From NCBI RefSeq assembly GCF_003335045.1, contig NZ_QOZG01000002.1:372001-436000 (forward strand): 64,000 nucleotides of DNA, given 5' to 3'. Each line of letters opens with the position of its first letter. The first letter of the stretch is position 1. Positions 11,925 through 52,372 of this stretch are shown here, in pieces. Both the position numbers and the translations under genes were made by a program. The DNA is from Paramesorhizobium salinisoli (GTDB lineage: Bacteria > Pseudomonadota > Alphaproteobacteria > Rhizobiales > Rhizobiaceae). A model generated the notes under the pieces. It was not told the origin of the DNA, did no database searches, and saw only the letters and a list, made by a program, of their open reading frames with translations.

Positions 11925-11993
11925 GCCAATCTCCCCCACATGGGGGAGATACCCGGCTGGACAGAGGGGCACTGTCCCGCCAGCGTTTCCATC
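11925..11993. repeat. Half copy of a RIME-like intergenic palindromic repeat
   Basis: The segment consists of AATCTCCCCCACATGGGGGAGAT, a degenerate CCCGGCTGGACAGAGGGGC arm and the tail CTGTCCCGCCAGCGTTTCCA. It matches the right arm and tail of the full copy at 14898-15076. The left arm is absent. It lies between maeB and glnD and includes a strong local hairpin (CTCCCCC/GGGGGAG). Confidence 0.75.
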
Positions 11994-14897: not shown

Positions 14898-15076
14898 GGC
14901 GCCCCCCTCTGCCCTGCCGGGCATCTCCCCCGCAAGGGGGGAGATTATGCCTTCATCAAGCTGCGGCACCAATCGCAAACCTTGCAGAAGCAAGGCGATA
15001 GGCTCCGTCAGCCAATCTCCCCTCTTGCGGGGGAGATGCCCGGCAGGGCAGAGGGGGGCGCTGTCCCGCCAGCGTT
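14898..15076. repeat. Full RIME-like intergenic palindromic repeat
   Basis: The left arm (about 14899-14946) and right arm (about 15014-15061) are nearly perfect inverse copies of each other, each about 48 bases. Each arm also contains its own hairpin (CCCCCGC AAG GGGGG type). About 67 bases separate them. The tail CTGTCCCGCCAGCGTTTCCA follows. It fills most of the 238 bases between glnD and murJ. The form resembles the rhizobial intergenic mosaic elements (RIME); I use the name by resemblance only. Confidence 0.85.
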
Positions 15077-32617: not shown

Positions 32618-32648
32618 TTTTGTCCATTTCTAAGTAGTGGGCTGGAAT

Positions 32649-32803
32649 ACCCCCTCTGGCCTGCCGGATATCTCCCCTCAAGGGGAGATCAGGCTATGGC
32701 TTCCGTCTGCGCCAGTCCGTGACGTAGCAGAATAAAGCTCCCGCCCAATGACAGCAAATCTCCCCCTTGAGGGGGAGATGCCCGGCAGGGTAGAGGGGGG
32801 TGA
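32649..32803. repeat. RIME-like palindromic repeat, tail-less copy
   Basis: The left arm begins ACCCCCTCTGGCCTGCCGG and includes TCTCCCCTCAAGGGGAGA. The right arm includes TCTCCCCCTTGAGGGGGAGA and GCCCGGCAGGGTAGAGGGGGGT. The arms are inverse copies about 65 bases apart, as in the copy at 14898, but the CTGTCCCGCC tail is missing. It lies in the 245 bases between convergent gyrB and the phytase-like gene and probably also ends transcription. Confidence 0.8.
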
Positions 32804-38752: not shown

Positions 38753-41713
38753 TCAGTGCGCCTCGTCCCAATTCTGCGCCGCGCGCGCGTCCACCTGCAA
38801 TGGAACGGAGAGCGAAACGGCGGGCATGGCGGCGTTTTCCATGATCCGGCGGACCACGGGAATGGTATCTTCCACCTCGTTCTCCGGCGCCTCGAAGACC
38901 AGTTCGTCATGGACCTGCAGGAGCATGCGCGCCGACAGCCTTGCCTCGGCGAGCGCGTCGTCCATGCGGATCATGGCGCGGCGGATGATATCGGCGGCCG
39001 CTCCTTGAATCGGCGCGTTGATCGCGGCGCGCTCGTTGAAGGCGCGCATCTGCGGGTTGGACGAGCGGATTTCCGGATAATGCGCGCGCCGTCCGAAGAT
39101 CGTCTCGACATAGCCATGCTCGCGGGCAAACGCCTTAGTCGCCTCCATATAATCGCGAATGCCGGGGAAGCGCTGGAAATAGGTGCGGATATACTGCCCT
39201 GCCTCCTCGCGCGGAATCGACAGCTGGTTAGCCAGACCGAAGGCCGAAATGCCGTAGATAATGCCGAAATTGATCGCTTTTGCGCGGCGCCGCACCTCGC
39301 TCGGCATATCCTTGACGGGCACGCCGAACATTTCGGATGCGGTCATGGCATGAATGTCCATGCCCTCGGCGAAAGCGTGCTTCAATTGCGGGATATCGGC
39401 GACATGGGCGAGCACGCGCAGCTCGATCTGGCTGTAATCGGCGGAGATAAGCCTGTTGCCCGGCTCTGCGATGAACGCCGTCCTGATCTTGCGGCCTTCC
39501 GCCGTGCGGATAGGAATGTTCTGCAGATTGGGGTCTGAAGACGAAAGCCTGCCGGTTGAGGTGGCGGCCATCGCATAACAGGTATGGACGCGCTTGGTCT
39601 CGCGGTTGATATAGCCCGGCAACGCATCCGTATAGGTGGATTTGAGCTTGGTGAGCTGGCGCCAGTCGACGATCTTGCGTGGCAACTCATGGCCTGTCGC
39701 GGCTAAATCCTCCAGCGCCTGAGCTGATGTCGACCATTGGCCGGTTTTGGTTTTGGAGCCGCCGGGGAAGCCCATCCTGCCGAACAGGATATCGCCCAGT
39801 TGCTTCGGCGAGCCGATGTTGAAGCGTTCGCCGGCGAGCTTGTAGATCTCATCCTCGATCGCCGCCGCCGATTGCGCCAGATCGCCGGAAAGACGCGACA
39901 ATATCTGCCGGTCGACGGAGATGCCGCGCGCCTCCATGCGCGCCAGCACCGTCACCAGCGGCCGCTCCAGCCGCTCGTAAACGGACGCTGCTCCTTCCGC
40001 CGCAAGACGGGGCTTCAGAACACGCCAGAGCCGCAGCGTTACATCGGCATCCTCGCCGGCATAGGCGGTGGCGCGCTCGATATCCACCATGTCGAAGCTG
40101 ACCGCGGATTTGCCGCTGCCGGCCACTTCCTTGTAGTGGATGGTCTTGTGGCCGAGCCAGCGCTCCGACAGGCTGTCCATGCCATGTCCACCGGGACCGG
40201 CGTCCAACGCATAGGAAATCAGCATCGTATCGTCGAAAGGCGCGACATCGATGCCGTAGCGGTGCATGAGCAACCAGTCGAACTTCATGTTCTGGGCGAT
40301 CTTGAGGACCGCGCCGTCCTCCAGCATGGGCTTCAGCGCGGCAAGCGCCTGATCGAGCGGGATCTGGTTTTCCACCATCCCGCCGCCCAAGAGATCGCCC
40401 GCGCCCGATTTATGCGCCAGCGGCACATAGGCGGCGCGGCCCGGCGCAAGCGCCAGGGAAAGGCCGATCAGTTCGGCTTCCATCGGAAAGAGCGAATTGG
40501 TCTCGGTATCAAAAGCGACGATCCCATTCTCGGTCGCCTCATCGATCCATTGCTGCAGGGTGGCAAGATCGCGGATGCAGACATAGGCCGTGGTGTCGAT
40601 CTTTTCTGCCAGGGCCGCATCGGCGCGGGATTTAGCGAGATCGGCGGGTGTCATACCCCCCTCTGCGCTGCCGGGCAACTCCCCATCGACGAGAGAGACT
40701 ACACCGTCTTTTGACGCCGGCGAGGGCGATATCCCCGGCAGGCCCCTGGTTTCCATATCCGGCCCATGCGCTTGCGCGCCCCATTGCGTCTCGACGGGGA
40801 CCGGTTCGATTTCGGCCGCGTCGGTTCCGGTCGTCTCGGCAACACGTCGGGTGAGCGAGGTGAACTCCATCGCCTTGAGGAAGCCGATGAGCTTCGGCCC
40901 GTCCTGCGGCTCCAGCACCAGCGCCTCCAGGCCGACATCGATCGGCGTATCCTTCTTCAGCGTCACCAACTGGCGCGACAGACGCGCCTGTTCGGTGAAG
41001 GCGATGATGTTCTCGCGGCGCTTCTGCTGCTTGATTTCAGACGCACGGGCCAGAAGTGTATCGAGATCACCATACTCGCCAAGGAGCTGCGCTGCCGTCT
41101 TCGGCCCGATGCCGGGAATGCCAGGGATATTGTCGGTACTGTCGCCGGTGAGTGACTGCAGGTCGATCATCTTTTCCGGCGGCACGCCCCATTTCTCGAT
41201 CACTTCCGGAACCGAGATCTGCTTGTCCTTCATGCCGTCATACATCGACACCTTGCCGTTGACGAGCTGCATCAGATCCTTGTCGGAGGAGACGATCGTC
41301 ACGTCGCCGCCCGCCTCCACGGCAAGCCGGGCATAGGTGGCGATCAGATCGTCGGCCTCATAGCCCTCCTTCTCGATGCAGGGCAGGTTGAATGCCTTCG
41401 TCGCCTGGCGGATGAGGCCGAACTGCGGAATGAGGTCTTCCGGCGGGGCGCTGCGATTGGCCTTGTATTCGGGATAGATCGTGTTGCGGAAGGTCTTCGA
41501 GGAATAGTCGAAGATGACGGCGAAATGGGTCGGCACCACACCCACGTCAGTATTGCGGGCATCCTTCAGGAGCTTCCACAGCATATTACAGAAGCCGGAA
41601 ACCGCGCCGATGGGCAGGCCGTCGCTCTTGCGGGTGAGCGGGGGAAGAGCGTGATAGGCGCGGAAAATATAGCCCGAACCGTCAACGAGAAAGAGATGAT
41701 CGCCGTTTTTCAT
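38753..41713 (-). CDS. polA: DNA polymerase I
   Basis: The 986-residue protein has three domains: 5'-3' nuclease (residues 1 to about 290, opening LFLVDGSGYIFRAYHALPPL), 3'-5' exonuclease (about 385-560, with the catalytic AFDTETN) and family A polymerase (about 590-986, with DYSQIELRVLAHV and QVHDELVFEAP). Proofreading residues D and E are present. Residues about 323-353 (LPGISP...GELPGSAEGG) are the in-frame translation of a repeat described at 40654-40748 and are not part of the usual fold. It fills Okazaki gaps and repair patches. Upstream lies a 475-base intergenic region containing a candidate small RNA. Confidence 0.98.
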   Translation of the reverse strand: MKNGDHLFLVDGSGYIFRAYHALPPLTRKSDGLPIGAVSGFCNMLWKLLKDARNTDVGVVPTHFAVIFDYSSKTFRNTIYPEYKANRSAPPEDLIPQFGLIRQATKAFNLPCIEKEGYEADDLIATYARLAVEAGGDVTIVSSDKDLMQLVNGKVSMYDGMKDKQISVPEVIEKWGVPPEKMIDLQSLTGDSTDNIPGIPGIGPKTAAQLLGEYGDLDTLLARASEIKQQKRRENIIAFTEQARLSRQLVTLKKDTPIDVGLEALVLEPQDGPKLIGFLKAMEFTSLTRRVAETTGTDAAEIEPVPVETQWGAQAHGPDMETRGLPGISPSPASKDGVVSLVDGELPGSAEGGMTPADLAKSRADAALAEKIDTTAYVCIRDLATLQQWIDEATENGIVAFDTETNSLFPMEAELIGLSLALAPGRAAYVPLAHKSGAGDLLGGGMVENQIPLDQALAALKPMLEDGAVLKIAQNMKFDWLLMHRYGIDVAPFDDTMLISYALDAGPGGHGMDSLSERWLGHKTIHYKEVAGSGKSAVSFDMVDIERATAYAGEDADVTLRLWRVLKPRLAAEGAASVYERLERPLVTVLARMEARGISVDRQILSRLSGDLAQSAAAIEDEIYKLAGERFNIGSPKQLGDILFGRMGFPGGSKTKTGQWSTSAQALEDLAATGHELPRKIVDWRQLTKLKSTYTDALPGYINRETKRVHTCYAMAATSTGRLSSSDPNLQNIPIRTAEGRKIRTAFIAEPGNRLISADYSQIELRVLAHVADIPQLKHAFAEGMDIHAMTASEMFGVPVKDMPSEVRRRAKAINFGIIYGISAFGLANQLSIPREEAGQYIRTYFQRFPGIRDYMEATKAFAREHGYVETIFGRRAHYPEIRSSNPQMRAFNERAAINAPIQGAAADIIRRAMIRMDDALAEARLSARMLLQVHDELVFEAPENEVEDTIPVVRRIMENAAMPAVSLSVPLQVDARAAQNWDEAH
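40654..40748. repeat. RIME-like palindromic repeat inserted in frame in polA
   Basis: The plus-strand left arm ACCCCCCTCTGCGCTGCCGG and the following GCAACTCCCC differ from the 14898 copy at only 3 of 30 positions. The right end has GATATCCCCGGCAGGCCCC, a degenerate inverse copy. The element keeps the polA frame and supplies about 31 codons. Read on the minus strand it gives LPGISP and GELPGSAEGG; intergenic copies give LPGISPARGEI and GEMPGRAEGG in the same frames. Confidence 0.8.
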
Positions 41714-41909: not shown

Positions 41910-42056
41910 CATCGACGACATGTCGATATCTGGTCTTCCGGCCCGTCCCCCGCTGGATTTCCGGATCAGGCGGCAGCCTCATCCCCCCTCTCCGGGCTGC
42001 CGCTTAAAGTATCTGGCCGCTGTGGTATCCCCCTCACCGCAGCGGCCAAATCTTTT
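41910..42056 (+). ncRNA. Candidate trans-acting small RNA with C-rich hairpin loops
   Basis: Within the 475-base gap between polA and the M20 peptidase gene, four hairpins follow each other. They are ATCGAC/GTCGAT (41911-41927); TCCGGC/GCTGGA with loop CCGTCCCCC (41937-41957); CGGCAGCC/GGCTGCCG with loop TCATCCCCCCTCTCCG (41971-42002); and a 12-base-pair stem with loop ATCCCCCTC (42015-42047). The last is followed by AAATCTTTT, making a terminator. Three loops are C-rich and could pair with Shine-Dalgarno sequences, a design known from alphaproteobacterial small RNA families with CCUCC-type loops. No reading frame of note is present. The minus-strand polA promoter must share the 41714-41874 part of this gap. 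Confidence 0.6.
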
Positions 42057-42188
42057 CCGGCCAGCCTGCGGTTCTTTCGCAATGCGCGCTCCGGATGGCC
42101 TTGTGCACACTCCCGCAAAACAGATAGTCTGGCCCGCAAAATAGAATAGTCTGCGGTTCTCTTTACGAATCGAAAACAGGTAATGCGC

Positions 42189-52338: not shown

Positions 52339-52372
52339 CACCCTCCTCTGCCTTGCCGGGCAGGGGGAGGTG
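52339..52372. terminator. Hairpin between the PfkB kinase and xylB
   Basis: CACCCTCCTCTGCC and GGGCAGGGGGAGGTG can form a GC-rich stem of about a dozen pairs around TTGCC. The sequence CCTCCTCTGCCTTGCCGGGCA is close to one RIME-like arm, so this may be a repeat relic now ending two convergent genes. Confidence 0.55.

Follow-up and report, generated by a model that had tools for sequence, protein, structure and literature searches.

Palindromic repeats in frame within conserved genes of Rhizobiaceae: a decayed copy in the DNA polymerase I linker and further repeats at shared loops

The 64,000-nucleotide stretch of the Paramesorhizobium salinisoli genome analysed here (“the window”) carries, inside its DNA polymerase I gene (polA), a palindromic repeat in decayed form, other copies of which are dispersed in the same genome. 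The copy is read in frame between the 5' nuclease domain (Pfam match to residue 271) and the 3'-5' exonuclease domain (from residue 377), and repeats of this family (type A) or of two other families (types B and C) recur in frame in the PolA linkers of relatives and in loops of other conserved genes, with several families occupying one and the same site. Probably these palindromes are mobile and, in the manner of Rickettsia palindromic elements (RPE), persist where a loop is permissive. The palindromic repeats dispersed in Rhizobiaceae genomes would keep moving, presumably by transposition, and would occasionally land inside a conserved gene. Most such insertions would be lost, and the survivors would be those in which the frame is kept, no stop is brought in and a disordered, exposed loop receives the repeat as extra or substitute linker. 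Suitable loops would be the PolA hinge that joins the 5' nuclease to the Klenow part, a loop of CobN, and a loop of a protein resembling penicillin-binding protein 1C (PBP1C-like). The host proteins would presumably remain in working state, and the repeats would persist through tolerance rather than benefit. After arrival a copy may drift as linker sequence and lose its palindrome, as appears to have happened in the window; the near-perfect copies in two other PolA linkers (L057 and L187) and in genome G004 would be younger.

Table 1. Coordinates of polA and of type A repeat copies in the window.
Feature	Position	Strand	Basis
polA (DNA polymerase I, 986 aa)	38753-41713	-	NCBIfam and Pfam
In-frame type A palindromic repeat, coding about aa 322-353 of PolA	40655-40748	-	Model and profile scores
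Better kept arm of the PolA repeat, 37.1 bits	40655-40699	+	R1 model
Decayed second arm of the PolA repeat, 16/19 positions	about 40724-40742	-	Weak on its own
PolA aa 312-353, predicted disordered linker, pLDDT <50	40655-40780	-	AlphaFold2, moderate quality
Full intergenic type A copy; arms 14901-14945 (+) and 15015-15059 (-)	14901-15059	+	R1
Full intergenic type A copy	32648-32801	+	R1
Single-arm intergenic type A copy	11929-11972	-	R1

The segment within polA was scored with a covariance model (R1), for which 57 arms from elsewhere in the same genome were used and the PolA copy was excluded. The model matched the better kept arm with an E value of 6.7e-7 in the window and 5.4e-5 genome-wide, and its score was equalled by none of 2970 random 52-mers of the window and by none of 2000 shuffles. 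On the type A profile, the PolA linker of the window scored 22.0 bits; 3540 dinucleotide shuffles made from 177 linkers reached at most 7.4 bits. The second arm is absent from the R1 matches at E<=10 in the window search, and its agreement with the repeat was equalled by 3 of the 2000 shuffles and by 22 of the 2970 random 52-mers. The weakness of this arm taken alone is what a chance likeness of GC-rich coding DNA would have in its favour; given the genome-wide E value of the first arm and its results against shuffles and random 52-mers, that explanation is ruled out, its probability being close to nil. The sequence-only reading had proposed that an intergenic repeat lies in frame inside the PolA linker, and these scores bear it out: the match that it reported between the plus-strand arm and the copy at 14901, 27 of 30 positions, is exact, and the segment does not behave like random DNA. 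The AlphaFold2 model from which the disorder of the linker is predicted has a mean pLDDT of 65.3 and contains other stretches of low confidence, residues 589-750 above all.

Type A is a dispersed, multi-copy palindrome. The genome search with R1 placed 107 of the 114 listed arms at E<1e-3, with the next match at 24.4 bits; as 150 of 4836 first-look candidates were scored, this count may be low and is to be read as at least 107. By eye, type A arms mostly start with (A/G)CCCCCC, the ends of type B are GCCCC..GGGGC with varied flanks, and both lack a GTAG end. Type C is likewise present in many copies (38 rows in genome G521, 23 in G635 and 9 in G679), and no copy of it was detected in the window's genome. 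Type A may be similar to the Rhizobium-specific intergenic mosaic elements (RIME), reportedly described by Osteras in 1995. Both are rhizobial repeats; RIME is treated as intergenic in PMC2573895, whereas type A also lies inside genes. In the alignment of type A arms (A1), the small inner hairpin varies in a paired manner (CCC/GGG, TCC/GGA, GGC/GCC), as if pairing were kept.

The PolA linkers of relatives were collected from 80 named genome loci (the nearest relatives), the five other species of the genus and further genomes, giving 199 places including the window and 177 distinct linkers, all of which were placed for profile scoring. When the relatives are aligned (the nearest named one being Phyllobacterium leguminum, at 90%), their linkers are mostly variable and differ from that of the window, which rules out an ancestral conserved segment. 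Near relatives thus lack this segment, as had been anticipated from the sequence, and the 31 residues are not conserved among them. A simple ungapped palindrome score, for which 146 of the 199 linkers could be parsed, found L057, L187, L183 and L101, the palindromes of L057 and L187 being near perfect. Because this score missed the decayed copy of the window, profiles of the three families were used instead. These were built from dispersed copies; the PolA copy L316 was left out of the type C training set, and the type B set contains the dispersed twin of the PolA insert of G004 but not the insert itself.

In-frame palindromic repeats were found in 15 of the 177 distinct linkers, each scoring above all 3540 shuffles on at least one of the three profiles and each free of stop codons; 40 of the 60 added linkers were picked for long spans, so that this fraction describes a partly selected sample and is not a rate. 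Where linkers were not chosen by span, repeats were present in 3 of the 80 named loci and in 2 of the 6 species of the genus. Type A occurs in the window, in L057 (the metagenome-assembled Mesorhizobium sp. 61-13) and in L187; type B in L114 (G004, of the window's genus) and L177; and type C in ten linkers (L100, L101, L178, L182, L183, L185, L186, L191, L201 and L204). Among these ten, L185 is a marginal case (8.3 bits, with shuffles reaching 7.2), and L178 and L191 score on the A profile as well; L178 is counted as type C on the tree although its A score is slightly the higher (16.9 against 14.1 bits). Because the profiles cross-score weakly (type B gives 22 bits for L057 and 18 bits for L187, and type C gives 17 bits for L114), the three families, although distinct, are perhaps not wholly independent. 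No repeat was detected with the three profiles in the other 162 linkers. Among the 80 named loci, merged matches above 15 bits numbered 3 within the linkers (16 kb in total) and 8 in the flanks (237 kb), and the other polA sequence (220 kb) had none. A quick tree of the 177 rows, computed from the 120-140 residues after the linker, has at least 11 changes between presence and absence, and at least 12 when type is counted; the close relatives L183, L186 and L187 carry types C, C and A respectively.

The length of the linker is a poor guide to the presence of a repeat. Measured after the GPD motif, repeat-bearing linkers span 35-52 residues (median 45, n=15) and repeat-free ones 7-46 (median 32, n=149; 13 of the 177 were not placed by the GPD rule), and the linker of the window, at 35 residues, lies inside the repeat-free range; the comparison of PolA lengths among relatives, suggested in the sequence-only reading, consequently does not discriminate. 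Repeat-bearing linkers are about 13 residues longer, against the roughly 31-40 residues that an element encodes, and older linker sequence would therefore have been lost or replaced at arrival. Plain insertion alone is without power to explain the linker lengths.

The search for further in-frame copies that had been recommended for this genome succeeded in two genes, cobN and the PBP1C-like gene. In cobN, which was confirmed by Pfam, the compact repeat form TPPSGLPAISPTRGEMPGTAEGG lies in frame. Within the genus, the same CobN site holds type A in L267, L269 and L270 and type B in L271 and L272, and the sixth species, G001 (L377), has a weaker type A match there (17.3 bits). Parsing succeeded for 38 of 51 CobN loci, 13 being dropped, and repeats were present in 16 of the 38 loops, comprising all loops of at least 51 residues and 0 of the 22 loops of at most 37 residues. 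The sample is enriched for split matches, and 16/38 is accordingly not a rate: 15 of 17 added loci were chosen for such matches, and the 10 of these that could be parsed all had repeats (10/10). Three single loops (L361, L365 and L366, parsed at 128-169 residues) apparently contain more than one repeat.

Because different families share one site, these data point to more than one arrival at the CobN and PolA sites. Such sharing could also arise if a site already occupied by a repeat were prone to its replacement by another, whether through recombination or template switching at palindromes or through repeats inserting into repeats, in which case it would reflect the DNA of the site and not the tolerance of the protein alone. 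Several observations would agree with an exchange of this kind: one CobN site holds either type A or type B and shows no obvious sign of the one that is missing, close relatives have types A and C in PolA, the net gain in PolA length is small, the profiles cross-score weakly, and the three long CobN loops apparently contain multiple repeats. The 22 repeat-free CobN loops, however, are short and apparently unoccupied, which means that many arrivals do not require an earlier repeat, and the exchange of repeats as cassettes is considered possible but unlikely as the main account. It is comparably doubtful, though worth stating in its boldest form, that PolA, CobN and PBP1C of Rhizobiaceae contain fixed docking loops in which distinct repeat families arrive and, like interchangeable cassettes, displace one another in frame, so that selfish DNA would continually supply new protein linkers across the genome, with some preference for the site that goes beyond tolerance.

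The second gene encodes a transglycosylase/transpeptidase, confirmed by Pfam and named PBP1C-like from its domains. In all six species of the genus the corresponding loop carries repeats, which are read in more than one frame. Outside the genus 0 of 16 parsed loops have repeats, and a split match in G481 may mark one there; in all, 22 of 36 PBP1C-like loci could be parsed and 14 were dropped. The spacers of five full copies, with the compact L282 left out, were compared in ten pairs. Judged by these spacers, the copies of L277 and L278 share descent, because none of the 703 random pairs is as close as this one. The distances of the remaining nine pairs fall within the random range, and the PBP1C copies may still have a common descent accompanied by a change of frame. 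The tree of the genus has weak support (58-60 on inner branches).

A scan of the window's genome for copies inside genes examined 62 places, five of them weak (<=24.4 bits). Ten long open reading frames picked by eye from it were compared with Pfam; three had families (CobN, the PBP1C-like protein and CcmH), seven had none and were left uncounted, and CcmH (L242), where the repeat precedes the domain, was not counted either. Among ten open reading frames of relatives, picked by eye for type B or C repeats, five had Pfam families (UvrD, glycyl-tRNA synthetase beta, MmeI-like methyltransferase, ABC transporter and metal P-type ATPase) and five had none. In L302 (G004) the in-frame repeat falls within UvrD, and in L315 (G521) within glycyl-tRNA synthetase beta. 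The view of the PolA segment as a single insert was thus correct in that the copy is real and too narrow in that PolA proteins from other genera, and further genes of this genome, also carry repeats.

The peptides encoded at these sites are not constant. Depending on species and gene, type A arms are translated as PPSGLPAISP, TPLCPAGHLPLKGG or HPPLACQPSPPQGG. Averaged over 38 dispersed copies of the window's genome, the open share of the six reading frames is 33%; assuming a one-in-three chance of a suitable length, a gene would stay open after about 11% of arrivals. Because the repeats are read in different frames and three families are found at such sites, the comparison suggests that what is kept is an open frame in a tolerant loop and not a given peptide. 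If “domesticated” is taken to mean that the peptide is retained, the word consequently finds no support for the PolA copy. The idea behind it, that the repeat-coded peptide tunes PolA (for example the coupling of nuclease and polymerase) and is retained for that, can appeal to the persistence of the open frame in the decayed copy of the window, to the repeat in UvrD of G004 and to the repeats in repair genes elsewhere that PMC3733652 describes; set against the variation in family, frame and peptide at the same site and the 162 of 177 PolA linkers without a repeat, it appears improbable. Slightly less probable still is a role at the level of DNA or RNA, in which a hairpin in the polA gene or message would regulate polA or the palindrome would bind PolA itself. 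The near-perfect palindromes of L057 and L187 would suit it, and the REP of Escherichia coli is stated in PMC1525189 to bind DNA polymerase I; but the second arm of the window's copy is badly decayed, the position is in the middle of the gene, and other families and genes behave alike.

Survival of mobile palindromes in permissive loops presupposes that the repeats move, and a candidate for a recent movement is found in G004. Its type B polA insert and a dispersed copy in the same genome agree at 114 of 114 bases, including the spacer; they also share the element ends, starting with GCCCCTCATCC and finishing with GGTGAGGGGC. From this identity, the insertion looks recent. As regards a possible MITE nature, inverted ends are present, and no clear target-site duplication was seen by eye at the element ends. 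The Y1 transposase family (PF01797) was found in 2 of the 8 genomes searched, G002 and G004, with no match in the window's genome (G000), G521 or G679. A GTAG REP driven by a RAYT was rejected as an identification, PF01797 being absent from the window's genome and no GTAG end being visible by eye.

Coding palindromes are best known from Rickettsia and Wolbachia. Like RPE, the present repeats are multi-copy palindromes of about 100-150 bp, dispersed through the genome and read in frame in otherwise intact conserved genes (here polA, cobN and the PBP1C-like gene). PMC3767692 and PMC2229807 also describe RPE groups in Rickettsia genes that include penicillin-binding protein 1C; orthologues there can have different groups close to the same site. 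In-frame fusions are reviewed in PMC2229807 and PMC10969869. The differences are that the present repeats occur in Rhizobiaceae, whose genomes measure several megabases, and that three distinct families occur at one PolA loop. The analogy with RPE drawn in the sequence-only reading is therefore apt; the kinship is one of kind, a likeness by description and not by sequence, and no membership of an RPE or REP sequence family is claimed. GTAG/CGTC REPs provide a second comparison: according to PMC3733652, they too occur in genes of DNA synthesis and repair, including DNA polymerase I and the UvrD/REP helicase, different REPs lie at approximately the same site in Xanthomonas recB, and neutrality within flexible linkers or loops was considered for them. 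In contrast to these REPs, types A and B show by eye neither GTAG nor CGTC at their ends, and PF01797 is missing from the genome of the window. The claim of newness therefore holds in part, in that the literature searched on palindromes inside genes yielded no description of in-gene copies of these Rhizobiaceae repeats or of the shared loops, whereas PMC3733652 already reports DNA polymerase I genes of other organisms with palindromes in frame.

The present observations extend coding palindromes to the Rhizobiaceae, a family that allows comparison across many species. Sites shared by different repeats allow a direct test of whether selfish DNA persists in important genes through tolerance, exchange or usefulness, and with the two identical copies in G004 the movement itself might be caught. 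They also carry a caution for annotation: peptides encoded by repeats are not conserved domains.

Two minor observations concern the window outside the PolA repeat. A weak partial match to a type A arm lies at 52340-52371 (22.9 bits; E 0.0015 in the window and 0.11 genome-wide). The sole Rfam match in the window at the gathering threshold is the alphaproteobacterial sRNA ar7 (RF02342, 93 bits), at 41910-42051 on the plus strand, between polA and the open reading frame at 42183; it falls outside the repeat, and a regulatory RNA family was on this ground rejected as the identity of the repeat.
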